64,000 bases of DNA from Gemmatimonas sp. (GTDB taxonomy: Bacteria > Gemmatimonadota > Gemmatimonadetes > Gemmatimonadales > Gemmatimonadaceae): the NCBI GenBank assembly GCA_013822425.1, contig PNKL01000005.1, forward strand, positions 1 to 64,000, read 5' to 3'. A program made the position numbers and the translations under genes. Positions 2,016 to 63,853 of this stretch are shown in pieces. The notes beneath the pieces are model-generated. The model was not told the DNA's origin. It did not search any database and saw only the letters and a program-made list of their open reading frames with translations. Each line of letters begins with the position of its first letter. Positions within the stretch are counted from its first letter, which is position 1.

Positions 2016-3370
2016 GCCGCGGCCTCGAGAATGGCCTGCGCGAGGCGATCGTCATCGGCGTCGGCGATGCCGCGCAGGTCGAGCCAGACGGCACCGTCGG
2101 CGATGCGTCCCACCACGGGCAGCGCGCCGTGCCGCAGCGCGCGCTCGCGCCGCCTGGCATCGCCGTCGAGCACGATGGCGCAGGACGGAATGCGGGACGA
2201 CGGAAAGGCGCCGCCGCCCACCGTGGCTTCCGTGTCCGCAGCGCGGGCGCCAACGCCCGCGGCGGCCAGCCGTGCGAGCAGGGCGGCGGCGCGCATGCGC
2301 AACGACTCCACGGGCGTCGTCAGCATGGCGAGGGCGGGAATCTCGCGCGCGGCGCGCGCCGGTTCCCGGTAGAGCCGCAGGGTGGCCTGCAGCGCGGCCA
2401 GCGTCAGCTTGTCCACCCGCAGCGCGCGGGCCAGCGGGTTGCGGCGCAACGCGTCGACGAGGTCGCCGCGCCCCAGGATGATGCCGGCCTGCGGACCGCC
2501 CAGCAGCTTGTCGCCGCTCATCATCACCAGCGATGCACCGGCGGCCACCGCGTCGCGCGCCGTGGGCTCGCCGTGCAAGCCCCACGGCGCGAGGTCGAGC
2601 ATCAGGCCGCTGCCGAAGTCGTAGAGCAGCGGGACGCCGGCCGCCTGCGCGAGCTCGGCGAGCGCTCGCGTGGGCACCGCAGCCACGAAGCCGTCCACCG
2701 TGAAGTTGCTGCGGTGGACGCTGACGATGGCGCCCGTCCGCGGCGTGCAGGCGCGCCGGTAGTCGTCGGCGTGCGTGCGGTTGGTCGTCCCCACCTCCAC
2801 GAGGCGGGCGCCGCTGCGCGCCATGATGTCGGGGACGCGGAACGAGCCGCCAATCTCCACCAGCTCCCCGCGCGACACGATGGCCTCGCGGCCATCCGCC
2901 ACCGTATTGAGCGCCAGCACGAGCGCGGCCGCGCAGTTGTTGACGACCATCGCGTCGTCGGCGCCCGTGAGCTCGCGCAGCAGTCCCGCGCAGTGCACGT
3001 GCCGCGAACCGCGCGCTCCCGCGGCAAGGTCGTACTCGAGGGAGGCAAAGCCGCGTGCCACATCGGCGATCGCGGCAATCGCCGCGGCGGCGAGCGGTGC
3101 GCGGCCGAGGTTGGTGTGCAGGACCACGCCGGTGGCGTTGAGCACAGGCTGAAGCGTGGCACGCTCGCTCGCCGCGAGGCGCGCCGCGATGGCGGCGGCC
3201 CATTCCGCGTCGGTCGCCGGCGCGCGAGCCGGGTCGGCGCGGGCCACGGCGATCTCGTCGCGGACCGCCTCAGCAACCGCGGCGCGCGGCACCTGCTTCA
3301 CGAGCGCGCGCACCGCGTCGTGCTCGAGGAGCACGTGCACGGCGGGAAGCGTGCGACGCGGATCGGTCAC
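2012..3370 (-). CDS. selA: SelA, L-seryl-tRNA(Sec) selenium transferase
   Basis: Converts Ser-tRNA(Sec) to Sec-tRNA(Sec) with selenophosphate, using PLP. The 452 residues are standard for the bacterial family. NATGVVLHTNLGRAPL (about 78-93) is the substrate-binding signature and SGDKLLGGPQAG carries the PLP lysine Lys288. The gene lies between a lipoprotein gene and gmhB with ATGA overlaps on both sides, so it is translated from the valS operon. selB, selC and selD are not in this window. A functional selenocysteine system elsewhere is therefore implied, not shown. Confidence 0.95.
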   Translation of the reverse strand: MTDPRRTLPAVHVLLEHDAVRALVKQVPRAAVAEAVRDEIAVARADPARAPATDAEWAAAIAARLAASERATLQPVLNATGVVLHTNLGRAPLAAAAIAAIADVARGFASLEYDLAAGARGSRHVHCAGLLRELTGADDAMVVNNCAAALVLALNTVADGREAIVSRGELVEIGGSFRVPDIMARSGARLVEVGTTNRTHADDYRRACTPRTGAIVSVHRSNFTVDGFVAAVPTRALAELAQAAGVPLLYDFGSGLMLDLAPWGLHGEPTARDAVAAGASLVMMSGDKLLGGPQAGIILGRGDLVDALRRNPLARALRVDKLTLAALQATLRLYREPARAAREIPALAMLTTPVESLRMRAAALLARLAAAGVGARAADTEATVGGGAFPSSRIPSCAIVLDGDARRRERALRHGALPVVGRIADGAVWLDLRGIADADDDRLAQAILEAAA

Positions 3371-4713
3371 GGCGCCGCCGGCCTTGGGGGAGCGGGCGCC
3401 GCCGTCGCAGCCGGTTTGGCGGGGGTTGCGGGCGGCGCCTTTGCTTTCGCGTCGGGCTCGCCGGGCCTGGCGGCGTCACCCTTCTTCTCCGCCGGTTTCG
3501 CAACGGTGAAAGAGCGCTCGCTCGTGCGGGTAACGCGCGAGACGCTCACCGCATCGCGGACCAGGAGGCGGTACGAGCCCGGCGGGAGGGGCTCGTCGAG
3601 CACCGCCACGAATTCGGCGGTGATCATCGCGCGTGCCGGCACGGGCGGCACCAGCTTGGGCGTCGTGTCTCGCGCCGCGCGGCGCGCCTCGGCCCGCGTC
3701 CGCTCGATGGAGTCGCGCTCGGCGATCACCCGCAGTGAGTCGGCGCGCAGGCGGGCCGCCCTGCCCGCGGCGCTCGTGTCGGCACTCAGCGCAGCGTCCC
3801 TGGCCGCAGCTTCGCGGGCGCGGGAAAGCGAGTCAAACGTCGCCGCGCGCCCGACGACGCGCACGGGCACCCGCGTGGAGTCGGCGCGGCGCAGTTCCAC
3901 CTGGTCGGCGCGGAGCACCGGGTCGAGACTGAGCGGGCGGTCAAAGGTCAGCCGCAGCGTTACGGAGTCTCGGAGGTCGGCGCCGACCACGCGCGCGCCG
4001 AGGGTGTCGTGCACGAAGCCGTAGAGGTCGAGCTGCAGCGAGTCCGACACGCTGACCGTCACGGAGTCCCACAGTTCGCGTGGTTCGAGCCGGCCGTTCG
4101 TGTTCGCGTCGAGGATGGCGCGGATCGTGTAGGAGCCCACGGGGAGAAGTGGCAGGGTGTACCGCCCCGTCGTGTCGGTGCGCGCGATCCAGCGGAAGGT
4201 GGTGTCGCTGCCGCTGCGGGCGTCAATGAGCGCTCCGTCGGCCGGCTTGAGCGTGGTCCAGTCAAAGACCACGCCGCGCACCACGCCGCGCGGAATGGAC
4301 GCGCCGGTGCTGAAGACGAAGGTGCGGGCCTTGGTCGTCGCGTTGCCGCTGAGGTCGCCGAGGCCGGGCATGATGGTCAGCGAGTAGGCCGTGTTGGCGC
4401 GGAAGTCCTTGCGCGGCCGCACGCTGATGGCGTCGCGATGCCACTGCACGCGTGCGGCGCCGTCCGACGGTGACAGCACCACGACGGCACCCAGATCGGG
4501 GCCGCTGCGTGGCCGTTCGCTGATCACCTCGTTGAAGCGCACCGTCACGCCCCGAGCCTTCACGTTGAGGGCACCCGAATCAGGGGTGACCTTCACGATG
4601 ACAGGGGCCACGCGGTCGAGCGGGCCGCCCGGCGGCGCGCCCGGAGAGGCACACGACGCGGCACTGGCCGCCGTCGCGAACACCATCGCCGCCACGCGCC
4701 GTTGGGCATTCAT
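3367..4713 (-). CDS. Ig-like (Big_5 type) domain lipoprotein
   Basis: A 448-residue predicted lipoprotein. The N terminus MNAQRRVAAMVFATAASAAS is followed by Cys20 in a lipobox-like ASAASC context. Residues of about 30-130 (VAPVIVKVTPDSG, VTVRFNEVIS, NTAYSLTIMPGLGDLSGN) match the bacterial Ig-like fold typical of Big_5/SbsA domains. A prealbumin-like stretch follows (TDTTGRYTLPLLPVGSYTIR, DANTNGRLE). A charged helical segment rich in Arg, Asp and Ala comes next, then a Pro/Ala/Lys-rich tail. The start at 4713 overlaps the valS stop as ATGA, and the stop overlaps selA. No enzymatic function is evident; it is probably an envelope-associated structural or carbohydrate-binding protein. Confidence 0.75.
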   Translation of the reverse strand: MNAQRRVAAMVFATAASAASCASPGAPPGGPLDRVAPVIVKVTPDSGALNVKARGVTVRFNEVISERPRSGPDLGAVVVLSPSDGAARVQWHRDAISVRPRKDFRANTAYSLTIMPGLGDLSGNATTKARTFVFSTGASIPRGVVRGVVFDWTTLKPADGALIDARSGSDTTFRWIARTDTTGRYTLPLLPVGSYTIRAILDANTNGRLEPRELWDSVTVSVSDSLQLDLYGFVHDTLGARVVGADLRDSVTLRLTFDRPLSLDPVLRADQVELRRADSTRVPVRVVGRAATFDSLSRAREAAARDAALSADTSAAGRAARLRADSLRVIAERDSIERTRAEARRAARDTTPKLVPPVPARAMITAEFVAVLDEPLPPGSYRLLVRDAVSVSRVTRTSERSFTVAKPAEKKGDAARPGEPDAKAKAPPATPAKPAATAAPAPPRPAAP

Positions 4714-26476: not shown

Positions 26477-27880
<1,404 letters not shown>

Positions 27881-46387: not shown

Positions 46388-46452
46388 GATTGGTGATGTG
46401 GACCCAGGATTGCGATTGAGGATTGCGACAGATGATTGCGATGGGCGATTGT
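46388..46452 (-). repeat. 65-base repeat arm, copy A3
   Basis: Plus strand: GATTGGTGATGTGGACC (17), CAGGATTGCGATT, GAGGATTGCGACA, GATGATTGCGATG (3x13), GGCGATTGT (9). Total 65 bases. As read from the leftward DUF4442 gene it is the pyrimidine-rich arm, 47 bases before the ATG, farther than other copies. The rest of 46341-46685 holds no gene I can support. Confidence 0.85.
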
Positions 46453-46697: not shown

Positions 46698-47636
46698 ATG
46701 CGGTTCCTCTGCCTTGAAACGCCGCGCGACGTACCATCGGCTGGAGCGGTCGTGTGCGCGGCTGGGCTCACGATTGCCGCAGCCGGGGCGATCATGCACC
46801 CCTTCGGTTCTCCCGCTCGCGGGTCCTACACTTGGCAACGGGGCACCGATCGTGGACAGCACGTGGCACTCACGTTTGTCGTGCCCGTCAGGGCAACGAC
46901 AGCGCGCACGGTTCCCCGCGGCAGCCAACCCGCCCCGTCCGCGACTCGTCGTGTCGGCCTGTCGGACCAGCCGGCTCCTCCCGACCGACCGTTGTCGCAT
47001 CAAGACACAGCTCCTACCGGCGTCATCGCTCTTCACGCAGACAGTGTCGCAGCGGTTGCGCCCCCGATGCGACGAGACGCGGCATCGTCGCGGCATACCC
47101 TGGCTCCAGTGAACTCGCGAGCAGGCATTTCGCGACGCACCGGAGTGACCATCGTGGAGCGGGACTCGATACTGGCGTACCTGAGTGAGAATGTGCCGGC
47201 GCTCGCGCGCACTCGGCGGCCGTTGCCAGAGGAGGAAGACGAACGTCTTCGAGAGCGAGCCCGGCTTCTCGCAGTCGCTCGCAGCGAGCACCGTCCGGTG
47301 GCCACTGCCACGGGCGCCGGTGGTCTCTCGATTCCGCTTCCCTTCTTCGGCGCGGGGCCATCGCGGAAGGACCGGGTCCGTGACAGCATCGTGCACGCCG
47401 ACAACGTGCGGCGGATTGGTCGACTCGTTGAAAGGGCGAGGCGCGATTCACTTCGCCGCGCCGAGGCAGTACGAAAGGAGAGCCAGAATGGGCCGGCGGA
47501 TCGCCCGAAGGTTCCGAACGCGACGCAGCAAGCACCACCGATACAGCCCCCTCGCAGCCCGATGCCGCTCCTCGCACCCGCCCTCTACATTGATCAGTCG
47601 CCAATCGCGTTCCTCAATCGCAATCCTGAGTCGTAA
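46698..47636 (+). CDS. Exported hypothetical protein whose C terminus is encoded by a repeat
   Basis: A 312-residue open frame with a strong Shine-Dalgarno (GGGGAGAG at 46686-46693) just before the ATG and a hydrophobic segment at about 15-32 (AGAVVCAAGLTIAAAGAIM) that could be a signal or anchor. The middle is low-complexity and Arg/Pro/Ala-rich. From about 150 it becomes a charged helical stretch (VERDSILAYLSEN, EEEDERLRERARLLAVARSE, LVERARRDSLRRAEAVRKES). The last 14 residues (QSPIAFLNRNPES and one before) and the stop are read from repeat copy A4. No family recognised. Confidence 0.5.
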   Translation: MRFLCLETPRDVPSAGAVVCAAGLTIAAAGAIMHPFGSPARGSYTWQRGTDRGQHVALTFVVPVRATTARTVPRGSQPAPSATRRVGLSDQPAPPDRPLSHQDTAPTGVIALHADSVAAVAPPMRRDAASSRHTLAPVNSRAGISRRTGVTIVERDSILAYLSENVPALARTRRPLPEEEDERLRERARLLAVARSEHRPVATATGAGGLSIPLPFFGAGPSRKDRVRDSIVHADNVRRIGRLVERARRDSLRRAEAVRKESQNGPADRPKVPNATQQAPPIQPPRSPMPLLAPALYIDQSPIAFLNRNPES

Positions 47637-47658
47637 TCCTGAGTCCATATCCTCAATC
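47594..47658 (+). repeat. 65-base repeat arm, copy A4, leader of ptrB
   Basis: Pyrimidine-rich arm: TCAGTCGCC, AATCGCGTTCCTC, AATCGCAATCCTG, AGTCGTAATCCTG, AGTCCATATCCTCAATC. It ends 6 bases before the ptrB ATG. It overlaps the 3' end of the upstream coding frame, whose TAA lies inside it. Confidence 0.87.
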
Positions 47659-49774: not shown

Positions 49775-50341
49775 TCACCCGTCGAGCGCGACCGCGAACA
49801 GCGCTGCGACGTCGATCTCCAACGCCTCGCTCGCCCCGAGCGGGAGCCACACGAGCACGTCCGTCACGACCTCCGGCCGTTCCTCACCAGCGCGCCAACG
49901 TTCCACCAAACGGGCCTCGAGATCCACAATCCAGTACTCGGCCACCTTGCCCCGCTGATAGTACCGGCGCTTGAGACCTCGGTCGTACCGGGCCGTGGAC
50001 GGCGACAGCACCTCGACCGCGAGAAGGAGTGACGACACCTCCCGCCAATCCTTGATCACCGACCTGCCGTCCACCAAGGGCGCCACAAACAGATCGGGCT
50101 GCACGATGTTCGTCGCCTCCAGCCGAATGTCGGCCGGCGACGGCAGCACTCGTCCAATGCCGGATGCCTTCGTGAACGGCATCAGATGGCCAAGCAGTTC
50201 CACGAGAACCGTCTGGTGCGGAGGACTTGGAGAAGGCGTCACCAGCAGTGCCCCGTCGATGCACTCGTACCGGTTGCCGTCGTCCGGCAACGCCCAGACG
50301 TCCTCGGGAGTCCAATACCGGGTGTCAGTTGCGGCGGGCAT
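49775..50341 (-). CDS. Uma2-family restriction-endonuclease-fold protein (copy 2)
   Basis: A 188-residue paralogue of the protein at 25858. RYWTPEDVWALPDDGNRYEC, NIVQPDLFVAP (Asp), AVEVLSPSTARYDRGLKRRYYQ (Glu/Lys region) and VAEYWIVD are all present. The two differ across most of the body but share promoter and start-site sequence. This ATG is favoured over the in-frame one 6 bases upstream by the promoter position. It faces ptrB tail to tail. Confidence 0.85.
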   Translation of the reverse strand: MPAATDTRYWTPEDVWALPDDGNRYECIDGALLVTPSPSPPHQTVLVELLGHLMPFTKASGIGRVLPSPADIRLEATNIVQPDLFVAPLVDGRSVIKDWREVSSLLLAVEVLSPSTARYDRGLKRRYYQRGKVAEYWIVDLEARLVERWRAGEERPEVVTDVLVWLPLGASEALEIDVAALFAVALDG

Positions 50342-50347
50342 GCCCAT

Positions 50348-50377
50348 AGCGTACGCTCGGCGGATGCGTGAAAGCAA
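50348..50377 (-). promoter_or_regulatory. Promoter of Uma2 gene 2 (leaderless)
   Basis: On the minus strand: -35 TTGCTT (50377-50372), 18-bp spacer, -10 TACGCT (50353-50348), then ATGGGCATG. Spacing and -10 are identical to the first Uma2 promoter. Bases 50378-50605 hold nothing I can support. Confidence 0.6.
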
Positions 50378-50617
50378 GAGGAACCCATGCTCGCAGCATG
50401 GCGTCGTGCGACGCCCGCAGCGTCACCCGATTCCTGCGTGCGTCATCCATCGAGCGCATCGACAAACGACGAGACCCGCGCCGCGACTTCCCCCGCCGCT
50501 TGAGTTTCTCCGGCGTGAGGCGCAGCTTCTACCGACCTCGAGATTCGTCACCGGCTCCCGCTGAGCAAGCTCCTCGCGTCAAATGCACCGTCACCCCACC
50601 GGATGAGAGGTAGGCCG

Positions 50618-52345
50618 ATGTTTCACCGCCCGCTGGCATTCGCGTCCATGCTACTACTCACGGCGGGGGGCGATGCTGCGCCCCGTGGCGGTCCCGATGC
50701 CGACGGCCGTGCGTCTGCCGCTCCTGCGCCGTCCCCCGTGCTGGCCGCCATGCAGCAGGAACTGGCGCGTTCGATGGAGACGCTGAAATCGCGCCCGCTC
50801 CCCGCCTATTTCCTGAGCTACGAGATCAACGACCGGCGCTCGGTGACGGTGCAGGGCGCTTTCGGCACGATCAACACCAGCGGCGCCTATCGCAGCCGGT
50901 CGCTCGGCGTCGACCTGCGCGTCGGTTCGAGCCGGTTCGACAACACGCATCAGATCCGCGGCGGCATGCCCTCGTTCGACGCCGGCGAGCGTTTCACCTT
51001 CGCGCAGGTGCCCATCGACAATGAGGTCAGCGCCATTCGGCGCGTCCTGTGGTATCAGACGGACAACAAGTACAAGCGCGCGGTGGAGCGGTACACGCGG
51101 GCCAAGGCGAATGCCCAGGTGCGCGTGGCGGCGGAGGACTCGTCGGCGGATTTCTCGTTCGAGCCGGCGGTATCGGCGAGCGACCCGCTCGTCGATGTCA
51201 CGCTTGACCGCCGTGCGTGGGAGGCGAAGATCCGGCGGTACACGGCGCCGTTCGCACGCACGGACGATATCTACGATGGCGAGGCCGTGCTGACGGCGGA
51301 GCACGAGACTCGGTGGTACGTGAACAGCGACGGCTCGGCGCTGCAGACTTCGTCGGTCCTGTATCGCCTGGTCATTTCGGCGAGCGCCAAGGCCGCTGAC
51401 GGCATGGTGCTGCCGCGCTACGAGTCATTCCTGGCGTCGACGGCGGCCGGATTGCCCGACGATGCCGCCGTGCTCCAGGCGGTCAGCCGCATGATCACTG
51501 ACCTGCGCGCCCTCAAGGTCGCACCCGTCGTCGACGCCATCACCGTTCCGGCCATTCTGTCGGGGCGCGCGAGCGGCGTCTTCTTCCACGAGGTGTTCGG
51601 TCACCGCGTCGAGGGGCACCGCCAGAAGGTCGAGACCGAAGGGCAGACATTCAAGAAGATGCTCGGTGTGAAGGTCCTGCCGGACGCGTTCTCCGTCTAC
51701 TTCGACCCGACGCTGAAACGGCTGGGGAACGTCGAACTGGCCGGCTACTACCTGTACGACGACGAGGGCGTCAAGGCGCGGCGCATCAACGTCGTGGAGA
51801 ACGGCGTCTTCAGGAACTTCCTGATGTCGCGATCCCCGATCGCGGGGTTCGACCACTCCAACGGACATGGCCGCGCCGCGCCGGGCTTCGCCCCCGTGGC
51901 CAGACAGTCGAACCTCGTCGTCGCGTCGACGATGGCGGTGTCGCACGATTCGCTCAAGAAGATGCTGATCGGCCTCATCAAGGAGCAGCGCAAGCCCTAC
52001 GGCCTCATCTTTGACGACATCGAGGGCGGCTTCACCATCACCCAGCGGACCATCCCGAACGCGTTCAACGTGCTGCCCGTCATGGTCTACCGCATCTTCC
52101 CCGACGGCCGGGAAGAACTCGTGCGCGGGGTGGACCTCGTCGGCACGCCGCTCACCGTCTTCAGCCGGGTGGTCGCGGCGGACAACGTGACGCGCGTGTT
52201 CAACGGCGTCTGCGGCGCCGAGTCGGGAGGGGTCCCCGTGTCGGCGTCGTCGCCGGCCATCCTCATCTCGCAGGTCGAAGTGCAGCGCAAGGACAAATCG
52301 CAGGAACAGGCGCCCATACTGCCGGTGCCGAGGGTGCAGCCATGA
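50618..52345 (+). CDS. Exported TldD-like metalloprotease
   Basis: A 575-residue TldD/PmbA-family protein with an N-terminal signal-like segment (MFHRPLAFASMLLLTAGGDA). The zinc motif HExxxH is intact at 324-329 in FFHEVFGHRVEGH. The C-terminal family barrel carries YYLYDDEGVKARR, VVENGVFRNFLMSRSP and PYGLIFDDIEGGFT. Cytosolic TldD with TldE trims microcin and RiPP-like peptides; this version appears exported. Shine-Dalgarno GAGAGG lies about 8 bases before the ATG, which supports the start. The stop overlaps its partner gene (ATGA). Confidence 0.85.
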   Translation: MFHRPLAFASMLLLTAGGDAAPRGGPDADGRASAAPAPSPVLAAMQQELARSMETLKSRPLPAYFLSYEINDRRSVTVQGAFGTINTSGAYRSRSLGVDLRVGSSRFDNTHQIRGGMPSFDAGERFTFAQVPIDNEVSAIRRVLWYQTDNKYKRAVERYTRAKANAQVRVAAEDSSADFSFEPAVSASDPLVDVTLDRRAWEAKIRRYTAPFARTDDIYDGEAVLTAEHETRWYVNSDGSALQTSSVLYRLVISASAKAADGMVLPRYESFLASTAAGLPDDAAVLQAVSRMITDLRALKVAPVVDAITVPAILSGRASGVFFHEVFGHRVEGHRQKVETEGQTFKKMLGVKVLPDAFSVYFDPTLKRLGNVELAGYYLYDDEGVKARRINVVENGVFRNFLMSRSPIAGFDHSNGHGRAAPGFAPVARQSNLVVASTMAVSHDSLKKMLIGLIKEQRKPYGLIFDDIEGGFTITQRTIPNAFNVLPVMVYRIFPDGREELVRGVDLVGTPLTVFSRVVAADNVTRVFNGVCGAESGGVPVSASSPAILISQVEVQRKDKSQEQAPILPVPRVQP

Positions 52346-54150
52346 AGCGGGCCCACACAGGCATCTTCCGCCTGGCCGGAGCCGCATTGGCGGCGTGCGT
52401 TGCGGCGAGCGCGCCTGTCCGGGCGCAGCGCCAGCCGGGCGATGGCGTCGTGGCTCGCGCCGCGCGCGATGAGTTGGCCCGGACAATGGCGGAGCTGCGG
52501 CTCGAGAAGGCGGACCGTCCGTATTTCGTGGCCTACACGATCACCGAGACGGACGGTGCGAGCGCGTCGGCGAGCTTCGGCAGCCTGATCGGCTCGAATC
52601 GCAGCCGCGGCCGGATGCTGCGGGTTGAAGTCCGCGTCGGCGACTATACGTTCGACAACACGAACTTCTTCAGCGCTCCCACGCTGTCGGGGAGGGGCAT
52701 GCGCACCTTCCTGGGCGTGGCCAGCCTGCCGCTCGACGACGACTACCTGGAGATTCGCCGCCAGATCTGGCTTGCCACCGACGGGGCGTACAAGGCCGCC
52801 GTAGAGGGAATCGCCGGGAAACGTGCGGCATTGCTCAACCGCTCGCGGACCGATTCGCTCGCCGACTTCAGCCGCGCGGACGTCACGCAGACCAGCGACG
52901 AGCTGCCCCCGGTGGTGTTCGAGCTCGCCGCCGGTGAGGCGCTCGTGCGCGATCTCTCCCGGGCCGGCAGTAGTCCGAGTATCTACGCGTCGAGCGTTTC
53001 GGTGAGCGCCTCCAACACGCGTACGTACTACATCAACAGCGAGGGCACGTCTTTCGTGCGCTCGCGACCGATGGTGACGGTGACGGCGAACGCATCGACC
53101 CAGGCTGCCGACGGGATGCCGCTCAGCAACTCGCTGCGCGTGTCGGCGCGGTCCATGGACGCGTTTCCCGGCCGCGATCAACTGGCCGCGCAGTTGCGCG
53201 GGATGTACGCCACGCTCGACACCATACGGAATGCGTCGGTCATCGACCGATACAACGGCCCCGTGCTGTTCGAAGGGCGTGCCGCCGCGGAGCTCTTCAG
53301 CGAGGTGTTCGCCCCCGCACTGGCCGCCGTTCGAAAGCCGGTTGCGGGCAATGCGCAGAGCGAAATGATGGCGTCGATACTCGGCGGCTCGTCGTCGCGC
53401 GGCGGCTCGCTCGCCGACAAGCTTGGCGCGCGCGTGCTGCCGGAGTTTCTGGGCGTCGTGGACGATCCGACATTGGCAGAACACGCCAACGTCCCGCTGC
53501 ACGGCGGCTACACGGTGGACGACCAAGGGGTGCGGGCGCGTCCGACACGCCTCGTGCAAAACGGCATCCTGAAGACGCTTCTCTCCAGCCGTACTCCGGT
53601 GGAGGGTGTGCCGAACAGCAGCGGCAATTTCCGCGCGGGCAGTGTGGCACCCAGCAACATGATCGTCGAGGTTGCCGGTGGCCTCGGCGACGCGGCACTG
53701 CGCGAGCGACTCCTGGCGATGGCCAAGGCGCGCGGACTGCCGTTTGCCATCGTCGTTCGGGCGCTGGGCACCACCGCATCCGGCGACCCCTCCACCATGG
53801 TCGCCGAGCTACTGGCCGCCTCGAGACCGGGTGGCGCCAACCGGGGACGGAGCGTGCTCCGAGCGTACCGGGTCTTGGCGGACGGTCGCGAGGAGGTCGT
53901 GCGCGGTGCGGTGCTGATGGGCCTCGGCGTCGACGCGTTCAAGGGCATCGTGGCCGCGTCGGCATCCGCGACGGTGTGGCACGGATCTGGTGCGACCGGG
54001 ATCAACGCCATGCTCGCGGCGGGCGGAGGGGGGGCTGCGCCGTCCACGTTCGTCGTTCCCGCGCTCCTGTTCGACGACCTGACCGTCACCAAGCGGAACG
54101 ACGAACTTCCCAAGCCGCCGTTCAGCGTTCCTCCGGGTGCACCGCAGTAG
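52342..54150 (+). CDS. Exported TldE/PmbA-like protein lacking the zinc motif
   Basis: A 602-residue paralogue of the upstream protein with a clear signal peptide (MKRAHTGIFRLAGAALAACV, cleavage near APVRAQ). At the position of HExxxH it reads FSEVFAP (Ser320, Glu321, Pro325), so both zinc histidines are gone. YTVDDQGVRARP, LVQNGILKTLLSSRTP and the C-terminal barrel are kept. This repeats the TldD (active) / TldE (inactive partner) split. A heterodimer in the periplasm is the natural inference. Confidence 0.82.
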   Translation: MKRAHTGIFRLAGAALAACVAASAPVRAQRQPGDGVVARAARDELARTMAELRLEKADRPYFVAYTITETDGASASASFGSLIGSNRSRGRMLRVEVRVGDYTFDNTNFFSAPTLSGRGMRTFLGVASLPLDDDYLEIRRQIWLATDGAYKAAVEGIAGKRAALLNRSRTDSLADFSRADVTQTSDELPPVVFELAAGEALVRDLSRAGSSPSIYASSVSVSASNTRTYYINSEGTSFVRSRPMVTVTANASTQAADGMPLSNSLRVSARSMDAFPGRDQLAAQLRGMYATLDTIRNASVIDRYNGPVLFEGRAAAELFSEVFAPALAAVRKPVAGNAQSEMMASILGGSSSRGGSLADKLGARVLPEFLGVVDDPTLAEHANVPLHGGYTVDDQGVRARPTRLVQNGILKTLLSSRTPVEGVPNSSGNFRAGSVAPSNMIVEVAGGLGDAALRERLLAMAKARGLPFAIVVRALGTTASGDPSTMVAELLAASRPGGANRGRSVLRAYRVLADGREEVVRGAVLMGLGVDAFKGIVAASASATVWHGSGATGINAMLAAGGGGAAPSTFVVPALLFDDLTVTKRNDELPKPPFSVPPGAPQ

Positions 54151-63707: not shown

Positions 63708-63853
63708 GATTGAGGATTTGGACCGAGGATCGCGATTCAGGATTGCGATACATGATTTCGATTGGCGATGGCTCCGCTGCCGTGGCGGGCCATCGCCAAT
63801 CGCTATCCGGAATCGCGGTCCTGAATCGCGGTCCTGAGTCCACATCCTCAATC
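63708..63853. repeat. Complete 146-base inverted repeat A5 with two 65-base arms
   Basis: Arm 1 at 63708-63772 starts 5 bases after the ftsH stop: GATTGAGGATTTGGACC, GAGGATCGCGATT, CAGGATTGCGATA, CATGATTTCGATT, GGCGATGGC. Arm 2 at 63789-63853 is its complement: GCCATCGCC, AATCGCTATCCGG, AATCGCGGTCCTG, AATCGCGGTCCTG, AGTCCACATCCTCAATC. The arms align over all 65 positions without gaps; several differences are still G-U pairs in RNA. The loop is 16 bases. It is the only copy in the window with both arms present. Confidence 0.9.

Follow-up and report, generated by a model that had tools for sequence, protein, structure and literature searches.

We have analyzed a stretch of 64,000 nucleotides from a Gemmatimonas sp. 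genome (the window), in which two overlapping genes on the forward strand, A and B, code for what are predicted to be exported proteins of the TldD fold (Table 1). The preliminary description of this DNA had given the positions of both genes and their ATGA overlap correctly. Two in-frame ATGs are available to gene A, at 50603 and 50618, and the second is the likelier start because GAGAGG, resembling a ribosome-binding site, lies 7 nt upstream. Scanning for promoters and terminators gave nothing useful. The pair is preceded by a prolyl oligopeptidase gene and, on the opposite strand, a Uma2-type gene, and it is followed by genes for the three subunits of NAD(P) transhydrogenase and for a protein of the beta-lactamase family.

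Table 1. Location of the A and B genes, their main sequence features and the adjacent gene within the window
Feature	Position	Strand	Basis or remark
Uma2-family gene (putative restriction endonuclease), directly upstream of the pair	49775-50377	-	
GAGAGG, resembling a ribosome-binding site, 7 nt upstream of ATG 50618	50605..50610	+	read from sequence
Gene A	50618..52345	+	ORF, 575 aa from ATG 50618; exported metal-site TldD-fold subunit (predicted)
Signal peptide of A, MFHRPLAFASMLLLTAGGDA^APRG, cleavage site approximate	50618..50677	+	heuristic score 3.92
HEVFGH of A, with the catalytic Glu and the two metal-binding His	51587..51604	+	invariant HExxGH in 75/75 homologues
Third metal-ligand Cys of A (NGVCGAES)	52211..52213	+	aligned with TldD Cys454; present in 75/75 homologues
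ATGA stop/start overlap of A and B	52342..52345	+	sequence
Gene B	52342..54150	+	ORF, 602 aa; exported metal-less TldD-fold subunit (predicted)
Signal peptide of B, MKRAHTGIFRLAGAALAACVAASAPVRA^QRQ, cleavage site approximate	52342..52425	+	heuristic
SEVFAP, degenerate metal motif of B	53299..53316	+	both His replaced in 74/74 partners

Elsewhere in the window a 13-nt tandem unit (about TCGCAATCCTGAA) is found at 654-677, 26531-26554, 46407-46443, 47603-47639 and 63714-63763. The genome to which the window belongs contains at least 104 double-unit occurrences (loci L209-L216 among the sites), with none for the reversed-pattern control. The arrays are often paired in opposite directions, giving long hairpins of about 150 nt (stretches some 200 nt in length are predicted to fold with -71 to -132 kcal/mol), and the unit could be a mobile element or a REP-like one.

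The metal site is complete in A and degenerate in B. In E. coli TldD the metal is bound by Cys454 and by both His of HExxxH (PMC5810440), so that A has all three ligands: its HEVFGH corresponds to His262, Glu263 and His267 of the E. coli protein (PMC5810440), and the Cys of NGVCGAES, located 208 residues after it, is the only one in the mature protein. B lacks a Cys at the ligand column. The preliminary description had pointed to HEVFGH in one protein and SEVFAP in the other, without mention of the Cys, and we have found this split to be invariant over the family and not a chance pattern: HExxGH and the distant Cys, in agreement with the HExxxH plus Cys of a catalytic subunit in the superfamily, are kept in all 75 A proteins, and both His are absent from all 74 partners (75 loci, near relatives among them). 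In A two clamp-bracing residues of TldD are altered, Lys456 being replaced by Ala and Asp272 by His, Gln or others; hence the activity may differ, and the details of the mechanism will differ from those in E. coli.

Both proteins belong to the TldD/PmbA superfamily (MEROPS M103) by its C-terminal metallopeptidase domain, PF19289 (PmbA_TldD_3rd), matched by A with 92.7 bits and by B with 59.9 (Pfam cut-off 22). Beyond this level the resemblance is distant. With phmmer, A matched TldD (5nj5_A) with an E value of 4.8e-11 and B reached PmbA only marginally, and the NCBIfam equivalog cut-offs were missed by both (A 36.5 of 513 for TldD, B 18.2 of 438 for PmbA). The best curated NCBIfam model was that of the archaeal-type TldD, NF040952, with 76 bits for A and 34 bits for B, far below its cut-off of 635. 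Between A and B the match is full-length, with about 190 bits, and TldE is barely matched. AlphaFold models have the two-domain fold of TldD/TldE for B and for A, the latter modeled as the A half of a natural fusion, L041. This half gave a Z of 27.9 over 435 residues with E. coli TldD and of 21-25 with PmbA/TldE; B of the window, modeled alone with AF2 (pLDDT 90.0, pTM 0.89), gave 29.6 over 431 aa with TldD and 23-26 with TldE/PmbA. Aligned identity of either model to E. coli TldD/TldE was only 12-17%.

In a tree of 60 proteins A formed one clade and B another, and both together were opposite TldD and TldE across a branch with support of 100, although the search was a quick one and this branch is long (2.16 changes per column). 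Forcing A to group with TldD made the tree 152 log-likelihood units worse, and this grouping is rejected (p-AU 1.74e-5). The pair had been described as a repetition of the TldD/TldE split. The active/dead arrangement is indeed present, but the nearest relative of A is B and vice versa, and either protein is more like TldD than like TldE; they are thus probably not the orthologues of TldD and TldE, respectively. With the full metal motif common to A and TldD, it is simplest to assume that B lost the site after duplication from an A-like ancestor. Judging from these sequences it is quite likely that this happened separately from TldE, i.e., that the split arose twice.

The N termini of both proteins had been noted as signal-like, and those of the window pair are of the Sec type. 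Using a home-made heuristic (not SignalP) applied alike to pair members and controls, signal-like N termini were found in 73/75 A and 67/68 unfused B, versus 3 of 43 ordinary TldD/TldE proteins, two of the three being the twin-arginine-like N termini of another TldD branch. Sec-like signals by this heuristic are thus a family-wide property of both subunits, while TldD/TldE proper are cytosolic and signal-free. Cysteine depletion is a second and independent sign of export, as expected outside the cytoplasm. Per 1000 aa, A has 0.66 cysteines other than the ligand, B has 1.3, and the ordinary TldD/TldE controls, which come mostly from the phyla of the pair, have 5.4. In 59 of the 75 mature A there is exactly one Cys, the metal ligand.

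Lipobox-like motifs were detected by pattern in 8/75 A and 4/68 B. In the B signal of the window, inspection by eye revealed one such motif, LAAC, inside the hydrophobic stretch. B might accordingly be read as a lipoprotein, but from the sequence a soluble periplasmic protein is likelier because LAAC is not kept in the nearest relatives. Separately, another gemmatimonadotal genome codes for two TldD paralogues (L180:1-1642 and 2837-4610, on G043:C7) with N termini resembling Tat signals, MQRRDFLAVSGLAA and MSTRRDFISTTSAAAGFALLA. Both have the motif HESVGHPxELDR and lack the Cys ligand, and by their signal-like N termini they make a second, separate exported branch of TldD.

In seven Gemmatimonadota genomes (G020, G076, G083, G183, G194, G255 and G283) A and B are a single reading frame of 1073-1261 codons, except for G083 with 771 codons at a contig edge. 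Where the start is present the fused chains have one signal peptide in front, and a linker of ~10-20 residues replaces the signal of B. They appear in two places in the tree of A, whose well-supported branches force at least two fusion/fission changes. Such fusions are strong evidence for a joint action of the two proteins in the same compartment. We used one of them, L041, in place of the window pair to model the complex. Alignments mixing many A-only and B-only rows put B rows on the A half, which random subsets did not cure, and hence a small balanced alignment of 18 rows was used. The mature chain (1127 aa) gave a mean pLDDT of 78.5 and a pTM of 0.79, and the model was judged by these two scores. 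This pTM is too high for random placement and implies that, in the model, the two halves are confidently placed relative to each other. Motifs, adjacency, natural fusion and the single-chain model support a putative complex of an active and a dead subunit. As the preliminary description had it, the two most likely act together, with the genes adjacent in all genomes but one and fused in seven; an exported version of TldD and TldE themselves they probably are not.

A search with A retrieved 39 loci in a genome collection, and the family set used here has about 75 loci from Acidobacteriota, Gemmatimonadota and a few others, near relatives included. The pair is present in 46/297 Acidobacteriota genomes and in 13/298 Gemmatimonadota (15/394 in an overlapping class-level sample). 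In Pseudomonadota (1/299) and Verrucomicrobiota (1/195) the only match was the seed genome itself, and the pair was found in none of ten other genomes of the window's own genus. Such a patchy distribution fits lateral transfer or frequent loss. A and B are adjacent and in the same direction at every locus, the one exception being genome G357, with the two genes on separate contigs. Seven of the 14 Gemmatimonadota genomes with the pair, that of the window (98.97% complete) and 6 of the 13 others, have no other PF19289 gene, and in these A cannot rely on a cytosolic TldE because no other gene of the TldD family is there. The remaining seven hold further PF19289 members. Many Gemmatimonadota genomes (L042-L071) give 4-8 TldD-family matches, spread over several branches.

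The preliminary description had seen no RiPP precursor or modifying enzyme, and we have found none near the pair, either in the window or in relatives, be it linked or conserved. It had also brought in microcin and RiPP processing and proposed looking for small peptides conserved beside the pair, a connection that gained no backing: no neighbor or small peptide was conserved, the small ORFs near the pair being shared between sister genomes only. Clustering the neighbors of 73 loci gave genus- or family-level synteny only, save for one cluster of nine at scattered distances, and each Pfam family among 94 scanned neighbors recurs at most three times. M48 peptidases, considered as a linked neighbor, were 3 of the 94, too few to count. 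However, E. coli TldD/E matures microcin B17 without being encoded in the microcin B17 cluster (PMC10885120), which indicates that linkage to the precursor is not obligatory for a TldD/E that matures RiPPs.

Taken together, we consider it probable that A and B make up one extracytoplasmic heterodimeric metallopeptidase of the TldD fold, of which we infer the location, the complex, the metal, the catalysis and the substrate. The two would be translated together, exported unfolded via Sec and folded outside the cytoplasm. A would coordinate one Zn (or Fe) by its two His and the Cys, and B, a duplicated TldD devoid of the metal ligands, would complete a hollow shell built from the two subunits. 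E. coli TldD/E has such a shell, with a beta-clamp that binds peptides regardless of their sequence and stepwise clipping (PMC5810440, PMC10885120). By analogy, unfolded peptides would enter the shell, lie along the beta-clamp in A independently of their sequence, and be clipped stepwise, a few residues at a time. The likeliest role would be clearing or trimming unfolded periplasmic peptides rather than maturing one dedicated product.

Other explanations have to be weighed. Instead of a peptidase, the pair could be an amidase or N-deacylase with envelope compounds or derivatives of peptidoglycan as its substrates. This is suggested by the N-deacetylases counted in the TldD family (from the title of Vobruba et al. 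2022, cited in PMC10885120) and by the altered clamp-bracing residues, but the metal ligands and the catalytic Glu are all kept and no small-molecule pathway is conserved in the neighborhood, so we find it unlikely. Slightly less probable still is that A is active as a homodimer, with B as its regulator, inhibitor or chaperone and not half of a chamber. Branch lengths indicate that B evolves faster than A and a homodimer of Sulfolobus TldD has been reported active (discussed in PMC5810440), but the dead partner in E. coli is half of the shell (PMC5810440), and the natural fusions with their short linkers and the pTM of the fused chain speak against this reading. A protease dedicated to maturing one exported peptide, RiPP-like or signaling, that is encoded elsewhere in the genome would suit a patchy, cargo-linked trait and has its precedent in the microcin B17 case (PMC10885120); we regard it as improbable given that several phyla carry the pair amid different surrounding genes, with no recurrent neighbor and no small ORF conserved beyond sister genomes.

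Two further readings concern the novelty of the pair itself. If A were TldD and B were TldE with signal peptides gained, location would be the sole novelty, and the fold and the active/dead pairing are the same. This is quite improbable in view of the rejected A plus TldD tree, the full-length match between A and B, and the closeness of B to TldD rather than TldE both in structure and in profile score. Finally, both proteins could be cytoplasmic, with signal-like N termini that stem from wrongly called starts in high-GC DNA, since the starts were chosen mechanically and many candidates in relatives are GTG or TTG. We give this very little credence: both window genes start with ATG, the same method found signal-like N termini in nearly all A and unfused B and in very few controls, and the cysteine depletion is strong.

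Our search of the literature, incomplete in its coverage, found no paper on an exported TldD or on an exported active/dead pair of this type. We lean towards considering A and B a second, independently evolved active/dead class of the TldD fold outside the cytoplasm, sometimes fused, which would serve Acidobacteriota and Gemmatimonadota as a general chamber for clearing or trimming envelope peptides. The need of TldD for a dead partner has been argued mainly from one E. coli pair. An active/dead design reached separately, together with natural single chains, would provide an independent test of the purpose of the dead half, and the fused chains could be taken directly as single-chain constructs for assays and structural work. 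If extracytoplasmic, this would be a further type of protease in the envelope of soil bacteria, raising the question of which unfolded peptides it meets there.

The closest known system is E. coli TldD/TldE (PmbA), PDB 5nj5 (Ghilarov et al. 2017, PMC5810440), which shares with A and B the fold and the active/dead pairing, with HExxxH and the distant Cys in one subunit only. However, the E. coli proteins are devoid of signal peptides, their genes are unlinked (about 1.07 Mb apart) instead of overlapping, TldE is a lineage separate from B, and Lys456 and Asp272 of TldD are not kept in A. The RiPP leader peptidases of the TldD/E type, acting on microcin B17 and klebsazolicin (PMC10885120), share the fold and probably thread peptides in a similar manner, but A and B have no precursor or modifying enzyme nearby and are predicted to be extracytoplasmic. 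The archaeal-type TldD (NF040952), despite being the best curated model for both proteins, is matched far under its cut-off. Lastly, the TldD branch with HESxxHPxELDR, common in Gemmatimonadota, belongs to the same family but has another metal motif that lacks the Cys ligand, a separate place in the tree and a partner without signal; where its members have signal-like N termini (L180), these are of the Tat type, and those of A and B of the Sec type.
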